A DNA stretch of 64,000 nt, from positions 1 through 64,000 of the forward strand of contig JAIXQP010000036.1 in NCBI GenBank assembly GCA_027485675.1, read 5' to 3'. The position numbers and the translations under genes are program-made. This DNA is from Terriglobales bacterium. GTDB lineage: Bacteria > Acidobacteriota > Terriglobia > Bryobacterales > Bryobacteraceae. The notes beneath the pieces were generated by a model. That model saw only the letters and a list, made by a program, of their open reading frames with translations. It searched no databases and had not been told where the DNA came from. Below, piece after piece: positions 502 through 18,433 of this stretch (positions are counted from its first letter, which is position 1; each line of letters begins with the position of its first letter).

Positions 502-567
502 AAATGGGTGCGGCAATAGCCTGTGGCTGAAAGAGACGGGGCGATGCCGGCATTCAGCCGGGTTCGG

Positions 568-841: not shown

Positions 842-918
842 GTGGTTCGGGTGGGCTCGAGGGGCCTCGCTGTAGGGCGATGTCATACGGAAAAAGTTGT
901 TAACGAACGGCTTACGAC

Positions 919-948
919 TTGCAGGGAGTAGGCCTTTTAGCCTATAAC
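919..948 (+). promoter_or_regulatory. Candidate sigma-70 promoter of the FecR-like gene
   Basis: TTGCAG (919-924) and TATAAC (943-948) are separated by 18 bases and lie 27 bases before the ATG at 976. The spacer also contains a small inverted repeat (TAGGC/GCCTA). The match to the vegetative consensus is fair, not perfect. Confidence 0.45.
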
Positions 949-975
949 TGATGATGAGGAGCAGCCTAAGCAAAA

Positions 976-1446: not shown

Positions 1447-1470
1447 GCCGGGAACAGTTAGAATCAAAGG

Positions 1471-1501
1471 CCCGGAGGCGGTGACGCTTCCGGGTCTTTT
1501 T
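1471..1501 (+). terminator. Rho-independent terminator
   Basis: A 10-base GC-rich arm (1471-1480) pairs with 1485-1494 across a 4-base loop, with one G-T wobble, followed at once by TCTTTTT. It lies 25 bases after the FecR-like gene and separates it from the O-antigen ligase-like gene. Confidence 0.85.
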
Positions 1502-1531
1502 GCGTTTCGGGAGAGAAGGGGGGAAGGGGCG

Positions 1532-2809: not shown

Positions 2810-2836
2810 TAGGATAGGGGGAGAAGGAGTTTTGTT

Positions 2837-3097
2837 ATGGCTGAGCTGCGGATTCGGTTGTCGGAGGAGTGGGTAGGGTTTGTGGAGGGGCGGGTGAAGG
2901 AGGGGGGGTACGCGGATAGTGGGGAGGTGGTGGAGGCGGCGCTGCGGGCGTGGGCGGGGGAGGAGGCGTTTCGGTTGTCGTTAGAGGAGGCGGCGGCGGA
3001 GATAGACCGGGGAGAGTATGAAGAGTATGACTTTTCGGATGGGGGAGCGAAGTTCTGGGCCGGGGTGCGGGAACGGGGCGGACGGCCAGCGGAATGA
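2837..3097 (+). CDS. ParD/CopG-like ribbon-helix-helix antitoxin
   Basis: An 86-residue protein opening with AELRIRLSEEWVGFV and GGYADSGEVVEAALR, the beta-strand/helix/helix pattern of ParD-type ribbon-helix-helix antitoxins. The C-terminal half is acidic (EEYDFSDGG), as expected for the toxin-neutralising tail. A GAGAAGGAG ribosome site precedes the ATG. The stop overlaps the toxin start by 4 bases (ATGA), so the two are translationally coupled. Such antitoxins normally bind their own promoter together with the toxin and repress it. Confidence 0.8.
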   Translation: MAELRIRLSEEWVGFVEGRVKEGGYADSGEVVEAALRAWAGEEAFRLSLEEAAAEIDRGEYEEYDFSDGGAKFWAGVRERGGRPAE

Positions 3098-3390
3098 AGC
3101 GGTTGGTGGTTTCGAAGCGGGCGAAGCGGGATCTGGATGGCATTTGGCGGTACTGGGCGGGGCGGAGTTCGGCGGAGGTGGCGGAGGGACAGGTGGGCCG
3201 GATACGGGAGAGTCTTCCGCTTCTGGTGCAGCAGGAGGAGGCGGGGCGGTTAGTGGAGCGCTGGGGTGCGGGGATACGGGTGTTTCCGGCGGGTAAGTAT
3301 TTGGTCTATTACGAGATTGGGCAAGGTGTGGTGAGGGTGCTGCGGGTGGTGTCAGGGGAGCGGGATCAGGAAGCGGCGTGGCGGGGGTAG
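3094..3390 (+). CDS. ParE/RelE-type toxin
   Basis: A 98-residue basic protein of the ParE/RelE fold: MKRLVVSKRAKRDLDGIWRYW forms the N-terminal strand and helix, followed by the GIRVFPAGKYLVYYE core and a RVLRVVSGERDQ ending typical of ParE. ParE members poison DNA gyrase, RelE members cut mRNA; this one looks closer to ParE because of its ribbon-helix-helix partner. It overlaps that antitoxin by 4 bases. A broken paralogue lies at 119-419, so the locus has hosted at least two such toxins. Confidence 0.8.
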   Translation: MKRLVVSKRAKRDLDGIWRYWAGRSSAEVAEGQVGRIRESLPLLVQQEEAGRLVERWGAGIRVFPAGKYLVYYEIGQGVVRVLRVVSGERDQEAAWRG

Positions 3391-3408
3391 TTGGGATATA
3401 CTGCGCGT

Positions 3409-5037
3409 ATGCAGACTACGGTTTATGACGCGGTGGTGGTGGGGAGTGGGGCGACGGGGGGTTGGGCGGCGAAACGGTTGACTGAGGCGGGGCTGCGGGT
3501 GGCGATGGTGGAGGCGGGGGCGAAGGTGACTCCGAAGGAGTTTACGGAGCATAACCAGCCGTCGCAGTACCAGTTTTTGGGGATGTCGCCGAAGGTGATG
3601 GAAGACCGGCCGATTCAGGGGCTATGTTACGCGTGCCGGGAGGGGAACCATAAGTGGTTTGTCAGTGACAAAGAGAACCCTTATGTGCAGGAGAAGCCGT
3701 TTAATTGGATCCGGATGCGGGTGCTGGGGGGGCGGAGCCTGAGTTGGGGGCGGCAGAGTTACCGGATGTCGAAGTTGGACTTGACGGGGAAGAGTCATGA
3801 CGGGTATGGGGATGACTGGCCGGTGACGTATGAGGAGTTGGTTCCTTATTACGAGTTGGTGGAGCGGTATGTGGGGATTTCGGGGCGGGCGGAGGGGTTG
3901 GAGCATTTGCCGGATGGGATTTTTCAGCCGCCGATGGAGTTGACGTGCGGGGAGACGATTCTGCGGGATTCGATGAAGAAGAATTTCGGGCGGACGTTGA
4001 CGATTGGGCGGACGGCGATTTTGACGAAGCCGCATAACGGGCGGCAGGCTTGCCATTACTGTGGGCCGTGCGAGCAGGGGTGTTCGACGTTTTCGTATTT
4101 TTCGAGCCCGTTTACGACGGTGGCGGATGCGCAGAAGACGGGGCGGTTGACGTTGGTGACGGATGCGGTGGCGGCGAAGGTGTTGACGAAGGATGGGAAG
4201 GCGGACCGGCTGATGTATATCGACCGGGTGACGCGGGAGGTGCGGGAGGTTAAGGCGAAGGTGTTTGTGTTGTGCGCGTCGACGCTCGAATCGACGCGGT
4301 TGCTGATGAATTCGGGGATTTGCGGGGATAACGATGCGTTGGGGAAGAACCTGATGGACCACATCTATCAGGGGGGGGCGTCGGGGGTGATGCCGCAGGT
4401 GGAGGCGAAGCCGTGGGCGGGGATGCCGCGGCGGCCGAATGGGGTGTATATTCCGCGGTTCCGGAATTTGAAGGAGCGGGAGACGAAGGGGTTCATTCGG
4501 GGGTATGGGTACCAGGGGGGGAGCGCGCCGGCGTTTGACTTTGGGGCTCCGGGATTTGGGAAGGAGTACAAAGAGGCCGTGCGGAAGGGGATCTTTGGGA
4601 TCAGTATTAACTTGTGGGGGGAGTGCTTGGCGCGGCCGGAGAACCATGTTTCGATTGACCCGAACCGGGTGGATGCGTGGGGGATTCCGATTTTGAAGAT
4701 TTCGGCGGAGTGGGGGGAGAACGAGAAGAAGCTGTGGCAGGACGGCAGGGAGCAGGCGGCCGAGATGTTAGAAGCGGCGGGGGCGAAGAATGTGCGGCAG
4801 ACGGGGCAGTATTCGATTCCGGGGTTCTGTATTCATGAGACGGGGACGGCGCGGATGGGTACGGATAAGAAGAAGAGCGTGTTGAATAAGTGGTGCCAGG
4901 CGCATGAGGTGAATAACTTGTTTGTGACGGATGGGGCGGCGTGGGTGAGTTCGGGGTGTCAGAATCCGACGTTGACGATGATGGCGCTGACGGTGCGGGC
5001 TTGTGATTATATTGTGCGGGAGATGGGGAAGGCGTGA
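3409..5037 (+). CDS. GMC-family FAD oxidoreductase with a ferredoxin-like cysteine motif
   Basis: A 542-residue flavoenzyme. The N-terminus carries the Rossmann FAD motif VVVGSGATGG and the distal E of VAMVEAG. The C-terminal GMC domain has the expected catalytic His (H476, in HETGTARMG) and Asn (N519, in GCQNPTLTMMAL). Unusually for the family, C215, C218, C221 and C225 form a CxxCxxCxxxC motif, suggesting an Fe-S cluster as in glucoside 3-dehydrogenase-type GMC enzymes. There is no signal peptide or Tat motif. ATG 3409 is preferred to an upstream TTG because the flavin motif then begins at the normal distance. The stop overlaps the next start (TGATG), so it probably works with the aldo/keto reductase in sugar or polyol oxidation; the substrate is unknown. 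Confidence 0.82.
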   Translation: MQTTVYDAVVVGSGATGGWAAKRLTEAGLRVAMVEAGAKVTPKEFTEHNQPSQYQFLGMSPKVMEDRPIQGLCYACREGNHKWFVSDKENPYVQEKPFNWIRMRVLGGRSLSWGRQSYRMSKLDLTGKSHDGYGDDWPVTYEELVPYYELVERYVGISGRAEGLEHLPDGIFQPPMELTCGETILRDSMKKNFGRTLTIGRTAILTKPHNGRQACHYCGPCEQGCSTFSYFSSPFTTVADAQKTGRLTLVTDAVAAKVLTKDGKADRLMYIDRVTREVREVKAKVFVLCASTLESTRLLMNSGICGDNDALGKNLMDHIYQGGASGVMPQVEAKPWAGMPRRPNGVYIPRFRNLKERETKGFIRGYGYQGGSAPAFDFGAPGFGKEYKEAVRKGIFGISINLWGECLARPENHVSIDPNRVDAWGIPILKISAEWGENEKKLWQDGREQAAEMLEAAGAKNVRQTGQYSIPGFCIHETGTARMGTDKKKSVLNKWCQAHEVNNLFVTDGAAWVSSGCQNPTLTMMALTVRACDYIVREMGKA

Positions 5038-6071
5038 TGAGAGAGATTGGGGCGGATAAGTTTGCGTTCGGATGTCACCGGTTTGGGTTTGGGCCGGCGC
5101 CGGGGGGCGGGCCGGTGGATACGGAGCGGCATGTGGTGCCGATGGTGAAGGCGGCGCTGGATTTGGGGATCCGGACGTTTGATTCGGCGGTGTTGTACCG
5201 GGCGACGTTGCAGTTGGGGCGGGCGTTGGAGATTTTGGGGGTGGCGCCGGAGGAGATCCGGTTTCAGACGAAGTGTTTGCGGTATTTGGGGTTGGCGGGG
5301 GAGGATGCGAAGGAGCATCAGCCGGAGGCGTTGTTGACGGGGATTCCGAAGCGGTATCAGGGGTTGACGGATAAGTGGGCCGGGAGTGAGGAGGGGACGG
5401 AGGAGCAGATTTGTAGGGAGCGGATTGAGTTGGGGGGTGGGACGTTGTACGGGGTGGCGCTGCATGATGGGCCGGATAAAGAAGCGCAGGTGGGGCTCGA
5501 TTGGGAGAAAGATATACGGCCGGCGGTGCGGATGTTGCAGCGGGCGAAGCGGCAGGGGTTTGTGGAGCGGATTGGGTTGGGGGTGAAGGTTCCGGGGTTT
5601 GTGGGGCGGTTTGTGAAGGAGGAGCCGGGGGTGCTGGATTATGCGGGGGTGACGTTTTGCCCGGCGATATTGCACGAGATGATGGGGGTGTTTGCGGAGG
5701 CGGAGCGGGAGAGGTATCAGGTGACGTTGATGGGGATCAACTATGGGCAGGCGTTTACGTTGACGGAGGATCCGGCGGGGGCGGGGCCGTTTTTGTATAA
5801 CTATGCGGTGGCGAATGCGGGGGAGCGGGAGTTGATGAGCCGGTTTTATCGGGCTTGCGGGTCGACGCCGTTGTTGCATTTGGCGGCGGCGGTGGCGGGG
5901 TTGTTGGTGGTGAACTTCCCCGGCGTGGTGACGCAGATTGTGACGTCGACGATGACGCCGGGGCGGTTGGTGGAGACGGTGAAGTTGATTCGGGAGGCGG
6001 AGGTGCCGGCTCCGGTATGGGCGGAGTTGAAGGCGATGGAGCTGATTCCGCGGGAGTTTCCGGTGAGTTAG
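5037..6071 (+). CDS. Aldo/keto reductase family protein
   Basis: A 344-residue protein of the aldo/keto reductase fold, closest in general look to the D-threo-aldose dehydrogenase group. The catalytic tetrad can be placed: D49 (in IRTFDSA), Y54, K79 (in RFQTK) and H143 (in ALHDGP). It is expected to be a cytoplasmic NAD(P)-dependent oxidoreductase acting on a carbonyl or sugar. The ATG shares one base with the stop of the GMC oxidoreductase, so the two genes are coupled and may perform successive redox steps. It ends just before a symmetric hairpin shared with the converging operon. Confidence 0.8.
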   Translation: MREIGADKFAFGCHRFGFGPAPGGGPVDTERHVVPMVKAALDLGIRTFDSAVLYRATLQLGRALEILGVAPEEIRFQTKCLRYLGLAGEDAKEHQPEALLTGIPKRYQGLTDKWAGSEEGTEEQICRERIELGGGTLYGVALHDGPDKEAQVGLDWEKDIRPAVRMLQRAKRQGFVERIGLGVKVPGFVGRFVKEEPGVLDYAGVTFCPAILHEMMGVFAEAERERYQVTLMGINYGQAFTLTEDPAGAGPFLYNYAVANAGERELMSRFYRACGSTPLLHLAAAVAGLLVVNFPGVVTQIVTSTMTPGRLVETVKLIREAEVPAPVWAELKAMELIPREFPVS

Positions 6072-6075
6072 GGGG

Positions 6076-6096
6076 GGAGAAGGGGTTACCTTCTCC
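6076..6096. terminator. Hairpin between convergent genes
   Basis: An 8-base perfect stem (GGAGAAGG at 6076-6083, CCTTCTCC at 6089-6096) with a 5-base loop sits between the aldo/keto reductase gene and the converging gene whose stop is at 6086-6088. No T-run follows on either strand, so a role as a two-way terminator is only likely. Confidence 0.45.
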
Positions 6097-6895
6097 TCCG
6101 TTGGGTGATGGGCATGTCGGTGACGCTGGAGGCGACGCGTCCGGCGACGGTTTTGTCGGTGTCGGTTTTCTTGAGGACGCGGCGGGTGAGGTTGCGTCCG
6201 AGGCGGGACTGGGCGAGGGTGAGGGGCAGGGTGGGAGGGACGAAGAGGGAGGTGGCGAGGACGGCGGAGTCCAGGAAGATGGGATGGCGGAGGGCCTTGA
6301 GGAAACGGTTCCGCTTGGGGGGCGGCGGGGGGTCGAGTTTCGCGGTGACGGTGGGGGCGGGTGGGGGTTCGGGTGATGGGACGGGGGCTACGGGGGCGGT
6401 GGCGGTAGCGGGTTCGTTTTGCGCCTGGGTGGCCGGGGCGGGGGGAGCGGCGGGGCGCTGAGCGGGCGTTGAGGCGACGCGGCGGGAGAGGCGAGCGCGT
6501 TCGGCGAGGGCGGCGCGGGTGGCGGCGAGTTCGACCTCCAGAGCGGATTTTTCCTGTTGGAGGGCGGCGATGTTTTCGTCTTTGTGGCGAAGGTTTTCCT
6601 GCCAGAGGTTGACGAGTTGGGTGGTGCGGCCGGCTTCGGCGACGGACTGTTCGCGGAGGGAGTGGATCTCCTGTTGGAGGGCGGTTTGGGAGTCGCGGAG
6701 GGTGTCGTACCAGGCGTTGAGACCGTAAAGGAAGAGGCTCGAGGCGAGGAGGACGGCGGCGACCGTGGCGGCGAGGAAGCGCTTGGGGAGCGATTGCTGG
6801 ATGATGATGGTGGGCGGGGGGACCTGGAGGGCGTGATGCGCGGCGTCGGAGACGACGGCGACTTCCAGGGTGGTGTAGGGGTGGTGGTTGTTCAT
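6086..6895 (-). CDS. Single-pass membrane protein with coiled coil and Pro/Ala-rich linker
   Basis: A 269-residue protein not matched to a named family. After a short cytoplasmic N-terminus comes one membrane segment (about residues 39-60), then a coiled coil of roughly 80 residues (heptads such as LQQEIHSLREQ and LQQEKSALEVELAATRAAL). A Pro/Ala-rich linker follows, and then a hydrophobic, basic C-terminus (KRNRFLKALRHPIF ... LFVPPTLPL). The last gene of the seven-gene operon, its ATG overlaps the stop of the M14 peptidase gene by 4 bases. It could anchor or scaffold an envelope complex; function unknown. Confidence 0.6.
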   Translation of the reverse strand: MNNHHPYTTLEVAVVSDAAHHALQVPPPTIIIQQSLPKRFLAATVAAVLLASSLFLYGLNAWYDTLRDSQTALQQEIHSLREQSVAEAGRTTQLVNLWQENLRHKDENIAALQQEKSALEVELAATRAALAERARLSRRVASTPAQRPAAPPAPATQAQNEPATATAPVAPVPSPEPPPAPTVTAKLDPPPPPKRNRFLKALRHPIFLDSAVLATSLFVPPTLPLTLAQSRLGRNLTRRVLKKTDTDKTVAGRVASSVTDMPITQRRRR

Positions 6896-8085
6896 GATAA
6901 GGCCTCGATATAGGACGTTTCGGTCAGGTTGGTGATGCGGCGGACGGAATGATTCTGGTGGAGGCCGAAGGAGGATTCGGCTTCGAGGAGGAGGGCGAGG
7001 AGGGGGCCGGTGGCGGGGGTGACGGGGATGAGTTGGCAGCCGGGGATGGGGCTGGGGGCGGTGGGGAAGATGCCGTGGCGGCGGAGGAGGGCGAGGATGG
7101 TGGTTTCGGTGCGCGGGACGGCGTAGGCGAGGGGTAGGGAGACGGAGCGGCGGCCCTGGACGGAGGGGCGGTATGGGGCGGAGAGGAGGAGCTCGGGCTG
7201 GCCGGTGGCGAGTTGGATGACGGGGATGGGAAGGGGCGAAGCGGCTTTGCGGCGGCGGGAGCGGAGCGGGACGCGGGTGGGGGCGGGGGGAGGAGCGAGG
7301 AGGGAGGCGGCGTGGGCGGTGGCCCAGCGGAGGAGTTCGTGGCAGGCGAGGAGGGTGGCGCGGCGGATGTGGCGCGGGTCGTGGGGAGCGTTGCGCGCGG
7401 AGGGGTTGCGGGCTTCGAGGAGGACAACGGGGGCGCCGTAGCGGAGAGCCAGGACGTTGCGGGCGTCGAGGCGTTGGGGGGTGCCGTGGCGGGAGCTGCC
7501 GTTGGGTTCGACCATGGTGTAGCGGCCGAAGCGGAAGCCGGCGGCGGAGAGCCGCTGGTCGAGGGTTTCCGAGAGCGAGGCGAAGAGGGGGTGGCCGTCG
7601 CGGAGGGGGACGGCGGGATTGGTGGGGAAGTCGAGGCAGAGGTCCCAGGCGAGGCGGACGCCGCGGTTGAGGAGATGGAGGCGGCGGGAGGGGAAGTTGT
7701 GCATGTCGACGGTGAGGTGGGGACGCCACTGGGCGACAAAGCGGTGGATGGCTTGGGTTTCCGGGGTGAGGAGGTGGAGGTGGTCGCGATTGAGGTCGAG
7801 GCCCTGGGCGTTGTGGCGGGTGCGGAGGGCGGTGCCGTCGGGGTTGGCGGATGGGAGGATGGCGACTTGGAGTTGGTGGCCGAGGAGTTCGGGGGAGGCT
7901 TCGAGGGCGAGGGAGAAGCGTTCGGCGGCGCGCTGGACGGCCCGTTCGTCGCCGTGTTGTCCGCAGAGGAAGAACAGGCGCAGGGGGGCTTGGGGGGAGC
8001 CGTGATGGTAGACGAGGAGGGGGCGTCCGAGGCTGGAGTGGCCGATGGCCTCGATACGGGTGGGAGATGGGGTGGGATTCGGCAT
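6892..8085 (-). CDS. M14-family zinc carboxypeptidase
   Basis: A 397-residue protein with the M14 zinc-carboxypeptidase signature: H44-x-x-E47 in GQHGDE, H129 as third zinc ligand in VDMHNF, the ANPDG and LDLNRD segments around the substrate site, and E224 (VVLLEARNP) as probable catalytic base. It should remove a C-terminal residue or hydrolyse a related amide. No signal peptide is evident, so it is probably cytoplasmic. The roughly 110-residue C-terminal extension matches nothing I recognise. The start at 8085 is the first ATG after the conserved end of the DCC gene (8093); the longer upstream frame only reads antisense to nothing and overlaps that gene. In an operon with an ABC exporter it could trim an exported peptide (inference). 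Confidence 0.78.
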   Translation of the reverse strand: MPNPTPSPTRIEAIGHSSLGRPLLVYHHGSPQAPLRLFFLCGQHGDERAVQRAAERFSLALEASPELLGHQLQVAILPSANPDGTALRTRHNAQGLDLNRDHLHLLTPETQAIHRFVAQWRPHLTVDMHNFPSRRLHLLNRGVRLAWDLCLDFPTNPAVPLRDGHPLFASLSETLDQRLSAAGFRFGRYTMVEPNGSSRHGTPQRLDARNVLALRYGAPVVLLEARNPSARNAPHDPRHIRRATLLACHELLRWATAHAASLLAPPPAPTRVPLRSRRRKAASPLPIPVIQLATGQPELLLSAPYRPSVQGRRSVSLPLAYAVPRTETTILALLRRHGIFPTAPSPIPGCQLIPVTPATGPLLALLLEAESSFGLHQNHSVRRITNLTETSYIEALS

Positions 8086-8092
8086 GGGGCGG

Positions 8093-8524
8093 CTAGTGGA
8101 GGTGGCAGGTACCGCCGTCGCATTGGACACGGCCGAAGCGGTAGCGGACCTGGGCGACGCGGTTATAGAGCCATTGCCAGACGGGACGGGACCCGGGAAT
8201 ATGGAGCAGGGGAGCGACCGGTCAGAGAAGCGGCAGGAGTTTGGAGAGATGGCGAAAGGCATCGGCGCCCGTGTGCCGATGATAGTTCTGGTCGATGAGA
8301 ATGATGGCCTTCATGCGCTGCTCGAAGGAAACGTCGGGCAGGACGAGATCGGCCAGGCAGTCGTGGAGCGAGAGGAAGGCGAGACTGCCGCTGCAATCCA
8401 ATTTGGCCAGGATGCGCATTTGGGCGATGCAGAAGCGGCAGCGTCCGTCGTAGACGATGATCTGGGCGTGGGGCCGTTCGACGAGGCCGGGCAGCCCTTG
8501 GCTCTGGGGAGGGGTCTGGCTCAT
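8093..8524 (-). pseudogene. DCC-family (DUF393) thiol protein gene interrupted by an in-frame TGA
   Basis: From ATG 8524 the frame encodes a DCC/DUF393 protein with the hallmark YDGRCRFC (C29 and C32). It stops at a TGA (8222-8224) after 100 residues. The same frame stays open for another 42 codons to a TAG at 8093-8095, and that extension has the family ending: hydrophobic PVAPLLHIPG, then WQWLYNRVAQVRYRFG and CDGGTCHLH. Relatives commonly have Trp near the interruption, so a TGG-to-TGA change is the simplest explanation. The TAG is only 7 bases before the M14 gene, matching the tight spacing of the operon. Its ATG overlaps the HTTM stop by 4 bases. The truncated protein may still be made; readthrough or a sequencing error cannot be excluded. 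Confidence 0.72.
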
Positions 8525-9504
8525 AGGGCCTCTTGAATGGGCGTCGGCGGCGCGTTCTGGTGGCGACTGCGGCGGAGGGAGGCGAGGAGGCGTTCGATGG
8601 GTTCGGCGATCCGTTCCACAGGGAAGAAGCACAGGAAGACGAAGCCCAGGAGCTGGTAACGGAAGGTGATGCCCATGACGAAGAGAATTCCCCAGTGCAT
8701 GGCGAAAGCGTTCAGCGCCCAGAACATGCCGAGGCGGCGGCTGAGAAAAGCGGCGGGGGCGAGCAGTTCGGTGACCATGGAGAGCACGCCGATGATGGTG
8801 AAGAGCCAGAGGTGCTCGTAGAGAGCGAAGGCGAGTTCGGGCGGGGCTTCGCCGAGGAGGGCCTTGCGAATGGCGTCGACGGCGACCTGGCTGCGGAGGG
8901 CGTCGCCACTGACCCATCCCCAGCCGAGTTCCCCGGCGAGTTTGGCGGCGCCGGAGAGGAAGTAGGTGGAGAGGGTGACGGCGCAGAGGAGTTGGATGGG
9001 CCAACCGTAGCGCCAGTGGATGGCGGGTAGGGTGTAGCGGGAGCGGAAGTGGGAGCGGGTATGGGCGCGGAGCCAGGAGTCGACTGACCAGGCGTCGGCG
9101 GCAGCGGTGAAGCCGAGGATGAGGATCTGCAGGACCATGGCGTTGTCGCTGTGGTAGATCATGGTCCAGGAGTTGCGGTAGCACAGGAGGGCGAGGAGGA
9201 GGAGGCTAAAGAGCGGACCGGTGAGGCGGAATCGCCATCCGGCGATGAAGGCCACGTTGGCGAGGAGGGTAGCCGTGAGCAGGGCTTTCAGGGCGCTCAA
9301 GGGGAGGGGGGCGACGAGCCACCAGACGGCGCCGAGGGGTTTGAAATAGAACGGGTCGTTGGCGTTCATCTCGAGGAACATCGTGAGGCGCTGGGCGATG
9401 TAGACGAAGGCGAACAGACCGACAGCGATGCGAATCAGGGCCAGACGGGTGGCCGGCATGGCGGGGAACCAGAGTTGATTGAGCCATTCGGATAGGCGGG
9501 GCAT
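8521..9504 (-). CDS. HTTM-domain membrane protein (vitamin K-dependent carboxylase-like)
   Basis: A 327-residue polytopic membrane protein with about seven or eight hydrophobic segments. The layout fits the HTTM (horizontally transferred transmembrane) family related to vitamin K-dependent gamma-carboxylase: an N-terminal TRLALIRIAVGLFAF helix, the YHSDN segment, AIHWRYGWPIQLL and the FLSGAAKL motif. Bacterial members are often next to DCC thiol proteins, as here, with a 4-base ATGA overlap. The preceding small membrane protein ends 2 bases upstream. Catalysis is not established for most bacterial homologues, so the name indicates fold only. Confidence 0.78.
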   Translation of the reverse strand: MPRLSEWLNQLWFPAMPATRLALIRIAVGLFAFVYIAQRLTMFLEMNANDPFYFKPLGAVWWLVAPLPLSALKALLTATLLANVAFIAGWRFRLTGPLFSLLLLALLCYRNSWTMIYHSDNAMVLQILILGFTAAADAWSVDSWLRAHTRSHFRSRYTLPAIHWRYGWPIQLLCAVTLSTYFLSGAAKLAGELGWGWVSGDALRSQVAVDAIRKALLGEAPPELAFALYEHLWLFTIIGVLSMVTELLAPAAFLSRRLGMFWALNAFAMHWGILFVMGITFRYQLLGFVFLCFFPVERIAEPIERLLASLRRSRHQNAPPTPIQEAL

Positions 9505-9506
9505 GG

Positions 9507-10022
9507 TTATTTAACCTCTCTTTTCGACTTTTTGGGTTCGGGGACGGGGCAGGCGGCGTGGAGCTTTTCGGCTACCGGGGTTTGGTCGCCGGCGAAGAAG
9601 GAATCGACGTGATGGGTGGCGGTGATGACCTGGACGGAGGTGAGGCGGGGGCCGGTATATCGTTTGGAGCGCGACAGGCGCTTGGCGACGGCGTTGCAGG
9701 TTTCGAGCGCCCGATCTTCCTTCACGGCGGCGTAGATTTGACGGCGGACCTGGTTGAAGCCGCCGGTGCCGGCGAAGGTGTGGCGGATGCGGTGTCGGTT
9801 GCCTTCGGCATCGATGCCGACGAGGGTTTGGCCCGAGAAGTGAGCGCTTCGCTTGGCGGAGAACATGGGGTAGTGGGAGAGGGGGAAGTTGTCGTTGGGC
9901 CGCCGCTCAAAGTTCTGGACGATGGGGGAGAGCACCGTGAGGAGCGTGGCGACGATGACCAGGGCCGGGCCGAGTTTGCTCGGGCGTGGGGTATAGACGG
10001 GGAGGATGGTGGAGTCAGTCAT
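9507..10022 (-). CDS. Small membrane protein with YPMFS motif, HTTM partner
   Basis: A 171-residue protein with one N-terminal membrane segment (about residues 18-36) and a soluble domain expected outside the cytoplasm. Just after the membrane helix comes FPLSHYPMFS, a motif seen in small proteins that accompany HTTM genes. A single internal Cys (ETCNAVA), another near the end (AACPVP) and a Lys-rich tail (KKSKREVK) are visible. It lies 35 bases after the ABC exporter gene and 2 bases before the HTTM gene. Probably a partner subunit of the HTTM protein; biochemical role unknown. Confidence 0.6.
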   Translation of the reverse strand: MTDSTILPVYTPRPSKLGPALVIVATLLTVLSPIVQNFERRPNDNFPLSHYPMFSAKRSAHFSGQTLVGIDAEGNRHRIRHTFAGTGGFNQVRRQIYAAVKEDRALETCNAVAKRLSRSKRYTGPRLTSVQVITATHHVDSFFAGDQTPVAEKLHAACPVPEPKKSKREVK

Positions 10023-10057
10023 GGCGTTGGTTCTTCCGGAGTTGGGATTGCCAGGGG

Positions 10058-11842
10058 TTACCGGCGACGCTGCATTGCGGCGGCGGAGAGGAGCGTTTGC
10101 CGGATGATGCCGGCTTCGAGTTCCATCACGTGATGGAGCGTGCTTTGGGATCGCAGAGAGTTGGCGGCGATCACGATGGTCAGGTTGGGCGTGAGGGCGG
10201 CCAAGCTGTCGAGAAGATGGGTCTCCGCATCGGGATCGAGGGCGGCGGTGGGCTCATCGAGGAGCAGCACCTTCGGCCGGCGCAGCAGTGCGCGGGCGAT
10301 GGCCAGGCGTTGGAGCTGTCCATTCGAGAGCCGGACGCCACCGTCGCCAAGGGTGGAGGCGAGGCCGTCGGGAAGGGAGCGCAGCGTGGCGCCGAGACCA
10401 GCGATTTCGCAGGCGCTGATCATTTCGGCCTCCGTGGCGTTCTCCCGGCCAAGAGAGAGATTTTCGGCGACGGTGCCCGTGAAGATGGCCGCCTGTTGCG
10501 GGACGAGAACGATATGGCGCCGGACGGATGCGACCTTACATTCGGCGAGATCCTGGCCGTCGACGAAGATGTGTCCGCCGTGGGGCGGCTCGAAGCCGGC
10601 GAGTAAGCGCAACAGGGTGGTTTTTCCTGATCCACTACGGCCCTTGATCCAGATCATGTTTCCCGGGGGGAAGGTTGCGGAGGCGCCATCGAGAATCGTG
10701 TGGCCTTGGAGCACCATCCGGAGATCCCGAATGGAGATATGACCGGCGATGGGATCGAGTTCCTCGGTTCCCTGCTCGTTTTGGCCGTTGGCGGTATCGA
10801 CCAGGTGGAGAAGCCGCTGGAGGCGGGTCAATTGGCGGCGGGTTTCCTTAGCGGCGCCACCGAGGCGGCGGAGGGGAACGTTGAGATAGCCGACGAAGCC
10901 GACGAAGGCGACCAGGGATCCGGAGGAGATCTCACCGGCCAGGACGCGATGGCCGCCGGCCCACCAGGAGCCGCCGAGGGCCAGAATCGAAAGGCTCCAT
11001 ACGGAGGCGGTGAGCAGGGAGCTGTAGACTCCTGTTTTGCCGGACTCCTCGAGCAGGCTATCGGACTCCGCGTTGATGCGGGACAGAACGACGGACTGCG
11101 CCCCGAGGGCCTGGATGGTGTCGATGCCGTCGAGGCGCTCGCGGATGCCTCTCTTGAAGTGCGCCTTGCGTTGTTGCCAGGAGCCGGTGTAGTCCTCCTC
11201 GCAGCGCTCGGCCAGTTGAATCAGAAGGAATTGGACCGGCAGCGAGGCGATAGGAAATACGGCCATCCAGGGATCGATGGCGACCAGGACGGCGGCCGGG
11301 TAGAGGAACCGGATGATTTCGGCGCCCCCTTCGACGACCGAGGTGCGGGCGAGATGACCGATGCTGCGGGTATCGGAGAGGGTGTGGTCGGAGAGGGCTG
11401 AGGCGCCGTGACGCCGATGGAACGAGGGGGAGGCGTACGCCCAGGCGGTGAGGACCTGCAGCCGGAAGTTGCGGACGACGAGTCGATGGAGCAAGCCGGC
11501 CGACCGCGCGCTGGCATAGGCGGCGATTCCGGTGAGGATGGCGATGGCGGTGAGCGCGAGACCCAAGCGTTCGACCAGGGCATAAGGGTGGGGACCGGAG
11601 AGGTCGAGTCCCCAGAGGTGGGTGGGCCGTCCGCTGAGGCCATCGACCAGGACCCCGGCCAGCAAGGGGACCTGGACGGGGAGCAGACGGAAGAGAATGC
11701 GCCAGGAGGCGGCGATGGCAAGCTGGCGACGGTACGGCTGGAGTTGGCGCAGGAGGGTGCGCCAAGCCGTGGCCGTTACTCGTGGTGCTTTGTTGCTGGG
11801 CATCGCCATAACCGACTCCGAGGAGGGCAAACTACGCAACAT
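10058..11842 (-). CDS. ABC exporter, fused permease and ATPase
   Basis: A 594-residue half-transporter: a six-helix exporter-type membrane domain in the first 330 residues, then a nucleotide-binding domain with Walker A GRSGSGKTT, a Q-loop in LVPQQAA, signature LSNGQLQR (Asn in place of the usual Gly) and Walker B VLLLDEPTAALD. Such proteins work as dimers and export lipids, peptides or thiols. The membrane part recalls CydC/MsbA-type exporters without being diagnostic, and no N-terminal peptidase (C39) domain is present. The ATG at 11842 overlaps the end of the NTPase gene by 11 bases; ATGs at 11809 and 11803 are alternatives. Presumably exports the product handled by the operon. Confidence 0.85.
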   Translation of the reverse strand: MLRSLPSSESVMAMPSNKAPRVTATAWRTLLRQLQPYRRQLAIAASWRILFRLLPVQVPLLAGVLVDGLSGRPTHLWGLDLSGPHPYALVERLGLALTAIAILTGIAAYASARSAGLLHRLVVRNFRLQVLTAWAYASPSFHRRHGASALSDHTLSDTRSIGHLARTSVVEGGAEIIRFLYPAAVLVAIDPWMAVFPIASLPVQFLLIQLAERCEEDYTGSWQQRKAHFKRGIRERLDGIDTIQALGAQSVVLSRINAESDSLLEESGKTGVYSSLLTASVWSLSILALGGSWWAGGHRVLAGEISSGSLVAFVGFVGYLNVPLRRLGGAAKETRRQLTRLQRLLHLVDTANGQNEQGTEELDPIAGHISIRDLRMVLQGHTILDGASATFPPGNMIWIKGRSGSGKTTLLRLLAGFEPPHGGHIFVDGQDLAECKVASVRRHIVLVPQQAAIFTGTVAENLSLGRENATEAEMISACEIAGLGATLRSLPDGLASTLGDGGVRLSNGQLQRLAIARALLRRPKVLLLDEPTAALDPDAETHLLDSLAALTPNLTIVIAANSLRSQSTLHHVMELEAGIIRQTLLSAAAMQRRR

Positions 11843-12971
11843 TGACGGCGGACTGCCGTCGGAGATTCAGCGTGGCGGCGACCGTTTCGCCCAGTTCGGT
11901 GGCATCGCCGGCGGAGGTAGCGACCGGCGTAGCGGCGATTTCGGCGAACTCGCGCATGCAGAGCGGGGAAGAGGTCAGAACGCCGGTGACGGCGAGGACG
12001 CGGTGGCCGAGGCTCTCGAGACGGCTAACGGCGTAGCGGGCGGATAGCGCATTGTCGGCGGCAAGCACGACCCCGGACAGTTGCTGCCGGAGGTTTTCGT
12101 CTTCGAGGAGCATGGCCGTTTCGCGCTGCAAGATGCCGTCGGCGATTTCCATTACGGTGACGTCGGCGTTGGCCGTCTCAAGCCCCGCCATCATGGAGCG
12201 GTACAGATCGAGCAACTCCTGCTTGCCGCACAGATAGGTGGACGGAAACCCGAAGTCGCTGAAGTCCAGGACCTGAGCGGCGGAGGCGGAGCGCATTTCG
12301 TCCTGGTCCCGGTTGGACACGCTGCCCGTGAGTTTGCAGGCGGCCACGCGCAAACCTTGCTGCGAGAGGGCCTTGATGAGCTTGACGCAAGAGGTGGTCT
12401 TGCCCGCATTCATTCCGGTGCCGACGACGGCGACGAGATTCCGGGGTGACTGGATGGGCGCCACTTTCTCGAATGCGGCTGCCTTCAAGTTGATGACTTG
12501 CCCGGCTGAGTTGGCGACGTAGCCGAGGAACCGAACGCGAGTAGGGCGCTTGACGGAGCGGTGGCGGGAGCGGACGGTGCCGATCATGCCGCCGGCGGTA
12601 AGCAGGCTCAGGTTGTCGAGGCCATCGACTTCGCCTTCGTAGGCGTCGGTCGCATAGCGATTGCCGAAGACGCCGACGATGCAGTCTCCGGGATAGATGC
12701 GGAGGCGAAGATTGTCCTGCGTGGTGATGCGCTCGTGATACCCCATCTCCTCCACTTGCACGACCGCGAGGTCGCCAGCGGCGGGCACGTAGCCCATGGG
12801 GCGCGAAATCAGTTGCGTGGCGCCGGGATCCATGATCCGGCAGGCCCAGGACCAGCGGGGAAGGGTGGCTTCGGTGGTCAGGGTGCTGAGTTGGGTATTC
12901 GGCAGGGACAGGGTAGGTAGAGCGATGCTGGGGATGGGCAGAATGGGATTGAGGACGATGGCTGGTGACAT
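11832..12971 (-). CDS. P-loop NTPase of dethiobiotin-synthetase/MobB-like type
   Basis: A 379-residue protein, first gene of the seven-gene operon. Residues 184-192 (GTGMNAGKT) are a Walker A loop inside a domain resembling SIMIBI-class NTPases such as dethiobiotin synthetase and MobB, with a following ACKLTGSVSNRDQDE segment and VMEIADGIL where a Walker B-like strand is expected. The first 180 residues form a separate beta-rich domain that I do not recognise; the very N-terminus is a low-complexity Pro/Leu/Ile stretch. The ATG has an AAGGAG site 6 bases upstream. It may supply an ATP-dependent ligation or activation step; the substrate is unknown. Confidence 0.6.
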   Translation of the reverse strand: MSPAIVLNPILPIPSIALPTLSLPNTQLSTLTTEATLPRWSWACRIMDPGATQLISRPMGYVPAAGDLAVVQVEEMGYHERITTQDNLRLRIYPGDCIVGVFGNRYATDAYEGEVDGLDNLSLLTAGGMIGTVRSRHRSVKRPTRVRFLGYVANSAGQVINLKAAAFEKVAPIQSPRNLVAVVGTGMNAGKTTSCVKLIKALSQQGLRVAACKLTGSVSNRDQDEMRSASAAQVLDFSDFGFPSTYLCGKQELLDLYRSMMAGLETANADVTVMEIADGILQRETAMLLEDENLRQQLSGVVLAADNALSARYAVSRLESLGHRVLAVTGVLTSSPLCMREFAEIAATPVATSAGDATELGETVAATLNLRRQSAVNVA

Positions 12972-13327
12972 AGTATCTCCTTGGGGGTAATGGGCCTGTC
13001 TTTGGGTTTGAGGTGGCGCCGGTGCGGGGCGATTCCCCCGCTGGCGGCGTCTGCGCCTTCCGTGGCGCTACCTCCCAACGGCCTACAACTCTTTAGGGAC
13101 ACCCAACTGGGAGAAAATATAGGGGCGTAAGGAAAAATATGGTTTATTGGGGGCGGGTAATTGGCGTATCCTGATTTCTGCTTGGGCAGCACGCTGCGCA
13201 CCGCGTTATGTTTGACCGCGATGCTATCCTCGGTTCAAGACAAGCCGGTGGTGGGTGCAGCTAGTGAGTCCAGGCTTCGAATAGTGCGACGCGAAGACAA
13301 TACTGGGGCAGCGGAGGACGGTGGGGC
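12972..13327. promoter_or_regulatory. Divergent intergenic region with GC-rich leader and spaced A/T boxes
   Basis: These 356 bases separate the divergent NTPase operon and ECF sigma gene and hold no credible gene. On the NTPase side, 12985-13085 is very GC-rich with several possible hairpins (for example GCGCC/GGCGC), suggesting a structured 5' leader; it matches no riboswitch that I know. At 13111-13120 and 13131-13140 lie two similar boxes (GAGAAAATAT and GGAAAAATAT) spaced exactly 20 bases, two helical turns, in otherwise GC-rich DNA. They are good candidates for a promoter or regulator site serving one or both directions. Confidence 0.45.
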
Positions 13328-13945
13328 ATGACCGACTTGGCGTCTACGATCAGCGAAGCTCTCCATGGTGCGCCCGACCGTTCCTGGCCGGATGAGCGTC
13401 TATTGACGGCGTGCCGGAATGGAGATCAGCGGGCTTGGGAAGCCCTTATTGCGAAGTACCAGAGCATGGTGTATTCGATCCCGTACCGCTACGGCGCGAC
13501 CGCGGACGATGCGGCCGACATTTTCCAGGGGGTGTGGATGGACCTGTATCAGGAACTGCCGCACCTGCGGAATGCCGAGGCGTTACGGTCGTGGTTGGCG
13601 ACGGTGGCGGGACGGCGTTCGCTGCGCTGGAAGCGCAGTCTGCAGCGGCGCGGCGAAGTAGATCTTCCCGACGAGGACCGGGACGAGCCCGAGAACGCCG
13701 ATCCCTTGCCGCCGGAGGCGATGGCCGAGGTGGAACGGGACCAAACGGTTCGCGAGGCGATTGCGGGGCTGCCGCCGCGTTGCCGGGAGTTGGTGGAGCT
13801 TCTGTTCTTCAAGGACCCGCCGATCTCGTACACGGAAGCGGCGGCTCATTTTGGTCTGGCTACCGGGTCAATTGGGTTTGTAAGAGGCCGATGTATCCGG
13901 AAGCTGCAGCAGGCGCTGGAGGAACGGGGCCTGGGCCCGAGCTAG
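13328..13945 (+). CDS. ECF sigma-70 factor
   Basis: A 205-residue ECF-family sigma factor. Region 2 is seen in WEALIAKYQSMVYSIPYRYG and ADDAADIFQGVWMDLY (about residues 38-80), and region 4 as a helix-turn-helix near the C-terminus (ISYTEAAAHFGLATGSIGFVRGRCIRKLQQAL). Between them is an acidic linker rich in Asp, Glu and Pro. It should direct RNA polymerase to an envelope- or metabolite-responsive regulon. The likely anti-sigma gene lies 117 bases downstream, and A/T-rich boxes flank the gene on both sides, which fits autoregulation (inference). Confidence 0.85.
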   Translation: MTDLASTISEALHGAPDRSWPDERLLTACRNGDQRAWEALIAKYQSMVYSIPYRYGATADDAADIFQGVWMDLYQELPHLRNAEALRSWLATVAGRRSLRWKRSLQRRGEVDLPDEDRDEPENADPLPPEAMAEVERDQTVREAIAGLPPRCRELVELLFFKDPPISYTEAAAHFGLATGSIGFVRGRCIRKLQQALEERGLGPS

Positions 13946-13980
13946 GCGATGGCGAAACGAAGGCGAGGGTCTCGAGAGTA

Positions 13981-14027
13981 GGAAAATTTTCCATACTTTT
14001 TTTCCCGGCTAGGTATATTTTTCATAC
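13981..14027. promoter_or_regulatory. 12-bp palindrome and repeated TTTT(C/T)CATAC boxes
   Basis: Between the sigma gene and its downstream neighbour, 13981-13992 is a perfect palindrome (GGAAAATTTTCC). TTTTCCATAC (13987-13996) recurs as TTTTTCATAC (14018-14027), 31 bases on. The reverse strand of these boxes resembles the A/T boxes at 13111-13140. They may be binding or promoter sites; a GGTATATT sequence inside could serve as a -10 element for the downstream gene. Confidence 0.45.
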
Positions 14028-14062
14028 AGGGTGCCTCCCCTGAGGAGGTGGAAGGCAAAAAC

Positions 14063-14722
14063 GTGCACTATAGCGAAGGACAATGGATTGATTTCGTGCG
14101 GGGGCTGACGGAAACAGCGGCGGCCCGCGAGATGCAGACGCACCTGGGTTCAAACTGCGCCGATTGTCAGGCGCTGGTCGATTCCCTGAGCGTGGTGGAG
14201 CGGACTGCCTTCCAGGACCGTGCGCTTCCGGTACCTACCGCGGCGATTGCGCGGGCCATGGCGATCTTTCGTCCTGCGCCGAGGGTGTCCTTTTTCGATC
14301 TCCCCCGCGTTCTTGCCGAGATCGTCTTCGACAGCAGGCACCAGCCGCTGCTCGCGGGAGTCCGCAAGATGGACCCCCAGGTGCGTCACGTGGTCTTTCG
14401 GTCGAGTGTCCTGCAGAGCGAAGTGCAGCTGGAAGTGCGGGCGCCGAAGCGGATTTTGGCGGTGACCGGGCAGTTGTCCACCCCGGCGAGCGACGAACTG
14501 CTTGCGAAGGGCATGCGCGTGGCCTTGACCGACGGCCAGTTGACTCTGGCCGAAGCTCCGGCGAATGAATTTGGGGAGTTCGAATTGGAGTGCAGCTTTC
14601 AGCGCGGTTTGCAATTAGTCGCGTGGTCGCCGCAGGGTCCCGAGGCCGTGGTGATGGACTTGGACGGTGTGTTGGGCAATTGGAAACAGAGTGTCGTCAC
14701 GGAGGACGGACCCCAGCAGTAG
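14063..14722 (+). CDS. Probable anti-sigma factor with zinc-binding N-terminus
   Basis: A 219-residue protein downstream of the ECF sigma gene. The N-terminus carries H27, C32 and C35 (HLGSNCADC), close to the H-x3-C-x2-C zinc motif of ZAS anti-sigma factors but with one extra residue. No membrane segment follows; the rest (from about residue 90) looks like a soluble beta-rich domain. The GTG at 14063 is preferred because GGAAGG lies 8 bases upstream; an earlier GTG (14048) lies inside the AGGAGG sequence itself. It probably holds the sigma factor inactive in the cytoplasm. The variant zinc spacing leaves some doubt. Confidence 0.6.
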   Translation: MHYSEGQWIDFVRGLTETAAAREMQTHLGSNCADCQALVDSLSVVERTAFQDRALPVPTAAIARAMAIFRPAPRVSFFDLPRVLAEIVFDSRHQPLLAGVRKMDPQVRHVVFRSSVLQSEVQLEVRAPKRILAVTGQLSTPASDELLAKGMRVALTDGQLTLAEAPANEFGEFELECSFQRGLQLVAWSPQGPEAVVMDLDGVLGNWKQSVVTEDGPQQ

Positions 14723-14823
14723 GCGCCTCGAACGGGCGGGACCACGAGTTGCACTCCGGCCTCCAAAGATGCCCCTCCCCAGCCGAATGCGGTCGATGGT
14801 CCCCTTCGCGATGACCCGGGCGG

Positions 14824-15459
14824 CTATTTGCGGACGACGAGGGTACCGGCGGCGAGGTCGTGCAGGGCTTGCTTTTTGTCCGTGAACAGGGCCATGAGGA
14901 AGCCGATCGAAAAGAACCAGCCGGAGAAGAGGTGCTTGACGAAGAAGCGGCCGAGGCTTTGGCCGCCGGAGATACGCTGGCCGGTTTGGGCGTCGACGAG
15001 CTTGATGCCGAGGATGAGTTTGCCGATGGTGGCTTGCTGGGGGCCCGATTCGAGTTTGACGAAGTAGAGCAGGTAGGCCAGGAAGGCGATGGGGACGGCG
15101 ATGAAGTAGGAGGCCAAGCCGGAGACAATGCCACCGGCGGCGCCGCCTTCGGTTTTGGTGGCGAGGCCGAGGAGGGCGAAGATCACGCCAGCGCCGACGA
15201 CGAGTCCTCCGGCGAGGCCCGCAGCCCCGAAGGCGAAGAACTCGTCGATGAGAAGGGCGACGAAGCGGAGGCCGAAGTTGGCGTGGGGGATAGCGGGCTG
15301 GGGAATGTACGCGGCGGGGGCAGGGGCGTGGTAGGGGTAGTAAGCGGCGGGAACGTGTGGCGCCGGGATGGGCGCCGCCGGTTGGGGAACCGGGGCGCCG
15401 CATTGGAGACAGTAGGGGCTAGCGGGGCTGGCGGCGAGGCCGCATTGCGTGCAGTTCAT
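14824..15459 (-). CDS. RDD-family membrane protein with N-terminal zinc ribbon
   Basis: A 211-residue protein. The first 22 residues form a zinc ribbon (CxxC in NCTQCG and CLQC), followed by a Pro/Ala/Tyr-rich linker. The RDD domain begins at FGLRFVALLIDEFF and has three or four membrane segments; the second conserved block is IGKLILGIKLVDAQTGQRISGGQSLGRFF. RDD proteins are widespread and mostly uncharacterised, some acting as cation antiporters. The kinase at 19185-21344 has the same kind of N-terminal zinc ribbon. It is the last gene of the nine-gene run, 27 bases after its neighbour, and converges with the anti-sigma gene. Confidence 0.8.
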   Translation of the reverse strand: MNCTQCGLAASPASPYCLQCGAPVPQPAAPIPAPHVPAAYYPYHAPAPAAYIPQPAIPHANFGLRFVALLIDEFFAFGAAGLAGGLVVGAGVIFALLGLATKTEGGAAGGIVSGLASYFIAVPIAFLAYLLYFVKLESGPQQATIGKLILGIKLVDAQTGQRISGGQSLGRFFVKHLFSGWFFSIGFLMALFTDKKQALHDLAAGTLVVRK

Positions 15460-15486
15460 GGTAGTGTCCTTGGGATGGCGTTGGGG

Positions 15487-17391
15487 TTAGCGGCAGACGA
15501 ACTCCGGGAAGGTAGTGCGCATCTGGTTGACGGGGCGGACCTGGCCGGTGGCGCCATCGATGGTGAAGACGTTCCAGATCTCTTCGGGACCGCTGGGAAC
15601 CGTGAAGGAGCTGACCTGGCGGTCTCCGCGGAAGACGGCGATCTGGGCCTGGCTTTGGGAAAGAAGATTCGCGCCGCCGGAGTAGTTGTCGACAAACAGG
15701 GTGTAGGTGCCGGGGAAGAGGCGGGCGATGCGGATGGTCTCGGTGGGCGGGACATCGGGGGTCGCGATGTTGTCGACTTCGAGTTGGGCGAACGGGTTGG
15801 AGTTGAGGAACCCGGTGGCGCCGAAGTAGACGCGGAAGCAGGAGGTACTGCCTTCCCGGGGGCCGTAAAGATGGAGGTCGAGGTCGCGCGGTTGGCCGCT
15901 GGGGTTGCGGAGCCAGTTGATGGTGATGCGGACCTGGCCCTCTTCGAGGATGGGGGAGACCGAGAGGCTGACCGTGGTGGTTTCGTTGGCCCGGACGGTG
16001 GCGTTCAGGGTGGAGGGGGCGAAGCCAGCTAGCGAGGTGGTGATGACGGTGTTGCCGACCGGGACGCCGGGGATCCGGAAGGCGCCGTTGACGGCGCTGA
16101 TGTCGAAGAGGGTGGAGTTGCTGAGCGACACGCGGACGCCACTGATGGCGGTGCCGGTGGCGGCGTTACGGACAAAGCCGGTGAGGGTGCCGGTGGCGAC
16201 GGGGGCGGCGGTGAGGGTGAAGTTAACCTGGATTTCCCCGGAGGCGGTCATCTCAATCGAGCGGTTTGCGGAGAGGAAGCCGGAGGCGGAGGCGGTGAGG
16301 GCGACATTGCCGGGGGGGACGCCGCTGAGGCGATAGGTGCCGTCAGCGGCGGTGCGAACGGAGAGGGAGCTGTTGCCGAGGGCGACGGTGGCTCCGGCGA
16401 TGGGGGCTTGGTTGGCGGCGTTGAGAACGCGGCCGAAGAAGACGCCGGAGAGGGTGGCGGGTGGCGGAGGGGCGTCGACGCGGGAGGCTTCGTCGCAGAC
16501 GCAGTCGTTCGACAGGAGGGTCTGGCTGACGTCGCGCACGGTGAGGTTATAGCCGAGGAAGGCGCTCTGATACTGGGCGGTGCGGCTGACGGGTTGGAGG
16601 AGGTTGTTGACATCGACGCCGGTGAGGCAGCCTTGGACGGCTTCGAGATCCCGGCGGTTGGAGACGATGAGTTCGTTGTAGAGATTGGAGACGGCCTGGT
16701 CGACGGTGTCGGAGCAGGTGAAGCAGGCGAAGATGCCGCCGGCGATACCGGTGGAGGCGGCGACGGAGGCGAGGTTGGGAATGATGGGGGAGGGGAGGAC
16801 GGGGCCATCGTTAAGCTGGCAGCAGGCGAGATTGGCGCTCGTGAGCTGCGCTTGATAGACGCTGAAGAGGGCGGCGAGATCTTCGCCGATGCTCTCGCCG
16901 GAGCGCTGGAGCATGCGGTCGGCGATGCCTTGGAAGGCGCCGAGGTCGAGGTTGACGATACCGGTGCGGTTGATGGTTTGCAGGTGCGGGCGGGCGCGTT
17001 CGAGGGTGGCGCGGAGGAAGTTGGCGCCGGTTTCGTCGGCCCGATTGGCGCCGAGGCAGAGGCTATAGGCGATGGTTTCGCCGAGGTAGTTCATGGCGAA
17101 CCAGACCGCGCTGAGAGTTTGGCGGGACATGCGGGCGCCGGGGATGGAGGCCTCGCGAAAGCGGGAGAAGGCCGAGGTGGGGCGGTTGAGCGGGAGGACT
17201 GGGGCGGAGACCACGCGGGACTTGGCGGAGGCCTCGGAGACGGTGGTCACGAGGCCTTTCAGGCACTCGCCGCCGGCACAGGCGGGCGTTTGCCGCTTGA
17301 GTTCGCGGACCCGGTGGAAGAGTTCGCCGAAGTCGGATTGGGCCGCGGCGGAAGCGGCCAGGAGGGCGATCGATAGCAGGATCTTGAGCAT
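15487..17391 (-). CDS. Secreted protein with two carboxypeptidase-regulatory-like domains
   Basis: A 634-residue exported protein with a signal peptide (MLKILLSIALLAASAAAQ). The first half is helical with scattered cysteines. It is followed by two tandem carboxypeptidase-regulatory-like (CarboxypepD_reg) beta-sandwiches, recognised by GATVALGNSSLSVRTAADGTYRLSG and by GVRVSLSNSTLFDIS with GAFRIPG. A final domain carries DLDLHLYGPREG and GTYTLFVDNYSGG, resembling the DUF2135-like domains of large secreted proteins. The start at 17391 gives the signal peptide; the frame is open further upstream but that part overlaps the next gene. Likely an extracytoplasmic adhesion or binding protein of the ECF-kinase operon. 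Confidence 0.7.
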   Translation of the reverse strand: MLKILLSIALLAASAAAQSDFGELFHRVRELKRQTPACAGGECLKGLVTTVSEASAKSRVVSAPVLPLNRPTSAFSRFREASIPGARMSRQTLSAVWFAMNYLGETIAYSLCLGANRADETGANFLRATLERARPHLQTINRTGIVNLDLGAFQGIADRMLQRSGESIGEDLAALFSVYQAQLTSANLACCQLNDGPVLPSPIIPNLASVAASTGIAGGIFACFTCSDTVDQAVSNLYNELIVSNRRDLEAVQGCLTGVDVNNLLQPVSRTAQYQSAFLGYNLTVRDVSQTLLSNDCVCDEASRVDAPPPPATLSGVFFGRVLNAANQAPIAGATVALGNSSLSVRTAADGTYRLSGVPPGNVALTASASGFLSANRSIEMTASGEIQVNFTLTAAPVATGTLTGFVRNAATGTAISGVRVSLSNSTLFDISAVNGAFRIPGVPVGNTVITTSLAGFAPSTLNATVRANETTTVSLSVSPILEEGQVRITINWLRNPSGQPRDLDLHLYGPREGSTSCFRVYFGATGFLNSNPFAQLEVDNIATPDVPPTETIRIARLFPGTYTLFVDNYSGGANLLSQSQAQIAVFRGDRQVSSFTVPSGPEEIWNVFTIDGATGQVRPVNQMRTTFPEFVCR

Positions 17392-17402
17392 GAAGCGGTT
17401 CC

Positions 17403-18425: not shown

Positions 18426-18433
18426 GGCGGCTC

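Follow-up and report, generated by a model that had tools for sequence, protein, structure and literature searches.

A conserved seven-gene operon of Acidobacteriota joins a predicted P-loop N-acyltransferase to an ABC exporter and an M14 peptidase

DgcN, a member of the DgcN-DgcA pathway that leads from D-Glu to L-Glu (PMC10845958, PMC12363236), the DUF1611 proteins (PF07755) and dethiobiotin synthetase (BioD) are the described proteins closest to a P-loop nucleoside triphosphatase (NTPase) encoded in a 64,000-nucleotide stretch of a Terriglobales bacterium genome (contig JAIXQP010000036.1, positions 1 to 64,000; hereafter the window). The NTPase gene belongs to a run of seven minus-strand genes at 6086-12971, in which neighbours overlap or lie at most 35 bases apart, as the original prediction had described. 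The operon was also said to be undescribed, and indeed neither its composition nor a DUF1611 protein in an arginine or exporter operon was found in the literature searched. It is read here, with a probability of about 0.4, as a system that acylates, exports and cuts an amino-acid-derived small molecule, in which glutamate or a comparable acidic residue is likely present.

The NTPase gene (11832-12971) encodes a protein of 379 residues comprising a disordered N-terminus (1-35), a beta-rich domain (approximately 39-165) and a SIMIBI P-loop domain (170-375). Single-sequence searches returned weak P-loop matches only (CbiA, DUF1611, MobB). The predicted structure had a mean pLDDT of 76, the P-loop domain being well predicted and part of the middle domain poorly. 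Fold searches with the P-loop domain gave the highest scores to BioD (Z up to 17.8), with the DUF1611 proteins 2g0t and 2obn at 16.1 and 15.5 and DgcN (7xrj, titled N-acetyltransferase) also matching (VIA Z 14.5, 176 residues, 3.1 A).

The likeness to each of these proteins was partial. DgcN shares the fold of the P-loop domain, but the N-terminal domain was unmatched, no PDB profile match between the two had an E value below 1, and the window gene, unlike DgcN, sits beside an exporter and a peptidase. The DUF1611 proteins share the P-loop domain and the region of an MNxGKT-like motif, and plasmid relatives of the NTPase are annotated as DUF1611; the window protein, however, falls below the Pfam cut-off. 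BioD shares the SIMIBI P-loop fold, whereas the NTPase has an additional N-terminal domain (about 165 residues) and scored 14 bits against the NCBIfam bioD model (cut-off 83.3). The identification as a dethiobiotin synthetase was therefore rejected, and the earlier description of the NTPase as dethiobiotin-synthetase-like is refined: the protein is a member of a P-loop family that has no name and lies near DUF1611 and DgcN. Because the behaviour of its sister clade is that of an N-acylglutamate synthase, acylation is a better guess for its chemistry than biotin-like carboxylation.

The seven genes are a real conserved unit, more than would be expected by chance. All seven were present in the same order in loci L005, L006 and L010 at protein identities of 44-83%; L005 derives from a congeneric genome (G017, 68-83%), and L006 and L010 from more distant Bryobacterales metagenome-assembled genomes (MAGs; 44-68%). 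The flanking genes differ between the window and these three loci despite the kept operon order. The order was rearranged in L007 (NTPase-ABC-M14-YPMFS-HTTM-DCC), and contigs L008 and L009 from archaeal MAGs (Nitrososphaera and Thermoplasmata, assigned by MAG binning) carried only the core NTPase-ABC-M14. The archaeal spread amounts to single genomes, 2 of 250 (one distant relative counted) and 1 of 293, and no viral copies were found. The orthologues are thus not scattered, and the predicted linkage held. Among 61 related genomes, the NTPase was found in just two (G000 and G017), two chance-level matches aside, and full-length HTTM in the same two, which indicates that the block was gained or lost together. 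Comparison with L005 placed all genes under purifying selection (dN/dS 0.11-0.54), strongest for the NTPase (0.11).

Of 396 Acidobacteriota genomes searched with a profile, 111 carried a relative of the NTPase. The maximum-likelihood tree separated, with full support, an exporter/hydrolase clade containing the window NTPase from an arginine clade, the placement of a few long branches being unsure. Arginine-clade members (profile E approximately 1e-20 to 1e-49; loci L051-L060 and L071-L085, for example L054:7963-9069 on the minus and L058:8030-9085 on the plus strand) lay within arginine gene clusters in 25 of the 26 loci inspected. The gene was located between argG and argC, together with argB, argD, argF and argR, usually in the order argR-argG-NTPase-argC-argD-argF-argB. 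In L057, L060, L076 and L077, NTPase-argC-argD-argB stood alone; apart from the NTPase, this set covers steps 2-4 of the acetylated pathway, and the first step, glutamate N-acylation, is the sole gap. The argF product of the clusters matched the NCBIfam model of N-acetylornithine carbamoyltransferase (459 bits, cut-off 288), and the argB product also matched an N-acetyl pathway model. GapMind, which covers succinylated arginine synthesis in Bacteroidetes and not the case in Acidobacteriota, cautions that the N-acetylornithine carbamoyltransferase label has wrongly been given to succinylornithine enzymes.

No sequence relation was found to ArgA or ArgJ, whose step is here assigned to the arginine clade. 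Among the 396 genomes, 102 had an arginine-clade NTPase and 144 had ArgJ, none had both and 150 had neither (Fisher p approximately 1e-24, kinship ignored). In 10 arginine-clade genomes, matches to the ArgA profile TIGR01890 were limited to its kinase half (argB) or were weak ones to GNAT, and ArgJ was absent from all 10. Given its location in arginine clusters and its never occurring with ArgJ, the arginine clade is the probable N-acetylglutamate synthase (NAGS) missing in many Acidobacteriota.

By homology to this clade, the operon NTPase would be a probable N-acyltransferase acting on a glutamate-like amine. Residues G184, M187, G190-K191-T192, K213, D222, E275 and D278-G279 are common to both clades, and H79, D236, A277 and T285 differ consistently between them, a pattern that is expected of one chemistry applied to different substrates. 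The window NTPase was itself rejected as an N-acetylglutamate synthase: it has no arg genes nearby, its genome has its own ArgJ, and it falls in the other clade. Four middle-tier genomes also carry ArgJ, and together with the window genome they indicate that the exporter clade does not serve arginine synthesis. We tentatively propose, at odds somewhat short of even, that this P-loop (SIMIBI) family includes a new class of amino-acid N-acyltransferases, of which one clade is the arginine NAGS of about a quarter of Acidobacteriota and the other drives an undescribed acylate-export-hydrolyse system of Acidobacteriota, archaeal MAGs and Rhodobacterales plasmids with recurrent HTTM and DCC proteins.

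The gene following the NTPase (10058-11842) encodes an ABC half-exporter of ordinary architecture, MsbA-like, with a transmembrane and a nucleotide-binding domain and without a C39 peptidase domain. Its start is 11842 or 11809, and the upstream start gives an overlap of 11 bases with the NTPase gene. Pfam and NCBIfam confirmed the assignment; identity with the lipid A exporter MsbA was rejected (NCBIfam 242, cut-off 602). The M14 zinc peptidase (6892-8085, approximately 397 residues) matched PF00246 at 31.2 bits (cut-off 21.6). Its zinc and catalytic residues (H45, E48, R101, H130, E225) and the motifs HxxE, LNRDH and DxH were invariant in seven orthologues. The best solved relatives were MpaA (E 1e-9), but the assignment as an MpaA murein tripeptide amidase was rejected (NCBIfam 44.1 bits, cut-off 157). 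The first ATG of the reading frame (8262) falls within the DCC gene in a different frame, and the true start is probably the ATG at 8085.

In the proposed scheme, the P-loop protein would transfer an acyl group in the cytosol to the alpha-amine of an amino acid or short peptide, and the MsbA-like half-transporter would export the acylated product. The cytosolic M14 enzyme would hydrolyse an amide of the same compound, by acyl removal or by peptide trimming, much as ArgE undoes the acylation made by NAGS. The YPMFS, HTTM, DCC and coiled-coil proteins would make up an accessory module of the envelope, by which the exported compound is modified or passed on. The sister clade is the ground on which we infer the acyltransferase chemistry; which step follows which, and a glutamate-like substrate, are likewise conjectural. 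The original idea of making or modifying a product and then exporting it fits the conserved operon, and the exporter linkage extends to plasmids of Alphaproteobacteria.

Several observations weigh against this scheme. The arginine sister clade, from which the function is taken, is only about 26-30% identical to the window NTPase, and the exclusion of ArgJ is a count of species, not of independent events. The match to DUF1611 reached 22.1 bits (cut-off 25) over 36 residues of the P-loop stretch. Many SIMIBI NTPases (BioD, HypB, CTP synthase, MinD-like) match the P-loop domain about as well as DgcN, and the fold thus supports the class and does not fix the chemistry. By eye, a signal peptide is lacking in the M14 proteins, which would place their action before export or after re-import, and HTTM, DCC and YPMFS are left unaccounted for.

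The strongest alternative, itself unlikely, is that the NTPase acts like BioD as an ATP-dependent carboxylase, or as a ligase forming amides, and in the arginine clusters would install another N-protecting group. The top fold score of BioD and a P-loop in which Lys, Asp and Glu are invariant agree with this possibility. Against it, models of the N-acetyl pathway are matched by the argF and argB products of the clusters, and the pathway of DgcN, the sole structure of the fold titled N-acetyltransferase, is one of glutamate.

A role in taking up and recycling peptides, from the cell wall or elsewhere, is improbable. The kinship of the peptidase with MpaA would suit it, as would the Dpp/Opp-type importer genes beside the operons of L005 (4364-9710), L006 (16839-19808) and L010 (100-1784, ATPases) and near L043 (approximately 12651-15672, reversed locus). 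However, the peptidase reached 44 of the 157 bits of the MpaA model, the core trio occurs in two archaeal MAGs while archaea have no murein, no importer lies beside the operon in the window or in L007, and the conserved transporter is an exporter. The idea that the system always includes an Opp-type importer was rejected, because such an importer is not universal and the window operon has none beside it; in the window genome, the protein closest to the L005 binding protein (45% identity) is encoded on a different contig.

A pathway resembling that of ribosomally synthesized and post-translationally modified peptides, in which the NTPase, HTTM and DCC proteins would modify a peptide, the ABC protein export it and the M14 enzyme trim its C-terminus, is likewise improbable. 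In its favour, an exporter and a carboxypeptidase are combined with HTTM, among whose family are peptidyl-Glu carboxylases, and a Paracoccus albus plasmid carries a full VKGC-like HTTM protein, a DCC protein and a secreted Asp-rich EF-hand-like protein near NTPase-ABC. No conserved short open reading frame (18-110 residues) was found outside the known genes of seven loci, however, in agreement with the original observation that no precursor gene was visible. The raw matches were antisense shadows of conserved genes and were rejected, and masking left only a non-coding leader stretch shared by the window and L005. The lack of a C39 peptidase domain in the ABC protein and the small-molecule metabolism of the arginine-clade relatives also argue against a peptide product. 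A peptidic metallophore or similar compound made by the NTPase, exported by the ABC protein, re-imported by an Opp-type system and opened by the M14 enzyme is very improbable: exporter and Opp-type importer genes occur together in 3 of 5 bacterial tier-1 loci and the M14 enzyme is cytosolic, but no metal-linked regulator or receptor was seen and the importer is missing at the window, L007, L008 and L009.

The preferred acylate, export and cut reading assigns the remaining four genes to the membrane. The gene for YPMFS (9507-10022, approximately 171 residues) follows the exporter after 35 bases. The protein has a single N-terminal membrane segment by eye; it matched no Pfam family, and a PDB search returned only chance-level matches to a designed protein. 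The HTTM-family membrane protein (8521-9504, 327 residues) begins 2 bases downstream and overlaps DCC by 4 bases. HTTM (PF05090) was matched by 2 of 5 orthologues (best E 5.6e-9) and not by the window protein, whose predicted structure (pLDDT 43) was unusable. A vitamin K-type gamma-glutamyl carboxylase was rejected, because the VKGC lumenal domain is absent from the window protein and its orthologues, and the HTTM profile matched no solved gamma-carboxylase at E 10. What the operon protein shares with the vitamin K-dependent gamma-carboxylase/HTTM family is the HTTM domain seen in the two orthologues, and it differs in lacking the lumenal domain. HTTM is fused to DCC in L006 (13288-14622) and to an M48-like peptidase with repeats in L007 (14706-17372).

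The DCC (DUF393) gene for a thiol-disulfide oxidoreductase-like protein (8093-8524) matched PF04134 at 40.6 bits (cut-off 27.8). An in-frame TGA at 8222-8224 interrupts it at codon 101, where L005 and L007 carry Trp. Homology continues past the TGA to the stop at 8093-8095, and the downstream part remains constrained (dN/dS 0.15 over 42 codons). In addition, the window exporter has the signature LSNGQ and an Asn in place of the H-loop His, while L005 has LSGGQ and His. These changes in DCC and the exporter may reflect decay of the window copy or errors in the sequence. The last gene (6086-6895), which overlaps M14 by 4 bases, encodes a coiled-coil protein anchored in the membrane; its C-terminal half is conserved, and it matched no family.

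Of the gene models first proposed, then, all seven are present, but DCC is not a gene of 100 residues and the M14 start is moved to 8085. The ABC, M14 and DCC labels were borne out by Pfam or NCBIfam, HTTM only through orthologues, and YPMFS by no Pfam family. The suggested quinol- or thiol-linked modification was not sustained, as the HTTM protein lacks the lumenal domain and any gamma-carboxylase match and DCC is broken in the window.

Elsewhere in the exporter/hydrolase clade, nine middle-tier Acidobacteriota genomes carry NTPase relatives of 34-37% identity, several directly followed by the ABC exporter. A hydrolase partner is usual: M14 in tier 1, and one alpha/beta-hydrolase family in L044, L047, L050, L091-L094, L096 and L097. 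NTPase-ABC with an alpha/beta hydrolase is carried by named plasmids of Paracoccus liaowanqingii, P. albus, Sulfitobacter and Tritonibacter, three of which have extracytoplasmic function (ECF) sigma and putative anti-sigma genes nearby, with an S8 peptidase. On the P. albus plasmid, HTTM and DCC adjoin NTPase-ABC in another phylum at an NTPase identity of about 33%, and the HTTM protein, unlike that of the operon, also has the VKGC-lumenal domain. That region (L094, NZ_CP115776.1, 5248-11525) includes the secreted Asp-rich EF-hand-like protein, of 150 residues, beside hydrolase-NTPase-ABC; carboxylase and acidic protein are possibly a pair.

In Microvirga, NTPase and hydrolase lie beside a cyanophycin-synthase-like, an ATP-grasp and a PGA_cap protein. 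A Priestia megaterium plasmid (L095, NZ_CP085446.1, 5724-14412) holds a distant NTPase relative in a putative natural-product cluster with a PEP (phosphoenolpyruvate) mutase-like protein, a thiamine pyrophosphate enzyme, an ornithine carbamoyltransferase-like protein, two ATP-grasp ligases and an M20 peptidase. These contexts have amino-acid ligation or acidic amino acids in common. In the middle-tier loci L044 and L047, the NTPase is near a YheCD ATP-grasp gene and HlyD, and L047 also has a 7TM_transglut domain fused to an ATP-grasp domain nearby. This gene content resembles the RloABC/7TM-transglutaminase and ATP-grasp systems (PMC12239564), none of whose genes is in the window operon. L070 (G465, from the search of the Nitrososphaera phylum) has two NTPase relatives side by side on opposite strands (6598-7659 plus, 7834-8676 minus) and no arg genes.

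Upstream of the operon, the minus-strand leader and promoter region (12972-13327) is conserved at approximately 13050-13120 with L005 only, and a search for a leader riboswitch found no Rfam family above threshold. Divergent from the operon, on the plus strand at 13328-14722, are an ECF sigma factor gene (13328-13945) and a putative anti-sigma gene (14048-14722). The divergent pair is possibly a regulatory partner of the operon, given that the NTPase has sigma genes close to it in five other loci (L005, L007, L092, L094 and L097). In two phyla, the surroundings of the NTPase system repeatedly include ECF sigma/anti-sigma genes with S8 or a large tetratricopeptide-repeat protein that looks CHAT-like by eye: the window (13328-14722), L005 (104-4367), L007 (913-7045), L092, L094 and L097. 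In L007, a SAM-alpha riboswitch (17901-17974) precedes a threonine-synthase-like gene, and an Acido-Lenti-1 RNA (7930-7974) lies close to the operon. GC skew is very strongly positive over window positions 1-20000 (0.17 to 0.57), with the same sign across plus- and minus-strand genes.

Under the acylate, export and cut reading, the operon points to an exported metabolite. To our knowledge, the functions of bacterial HTTM proteins are mostly unknown, and the recurrent joining of HTTM and DCC with the NTPase system offers a genetic handle on them. The question of what starts arginine synthesis in Acidobacteriota without ArgJ and a recognisable ArgA is made testable: rescue of an argA mutant by the arginine clade would provide a further, unrelated fold for the NAGS step and a strong lead for the chemistry of the operon.

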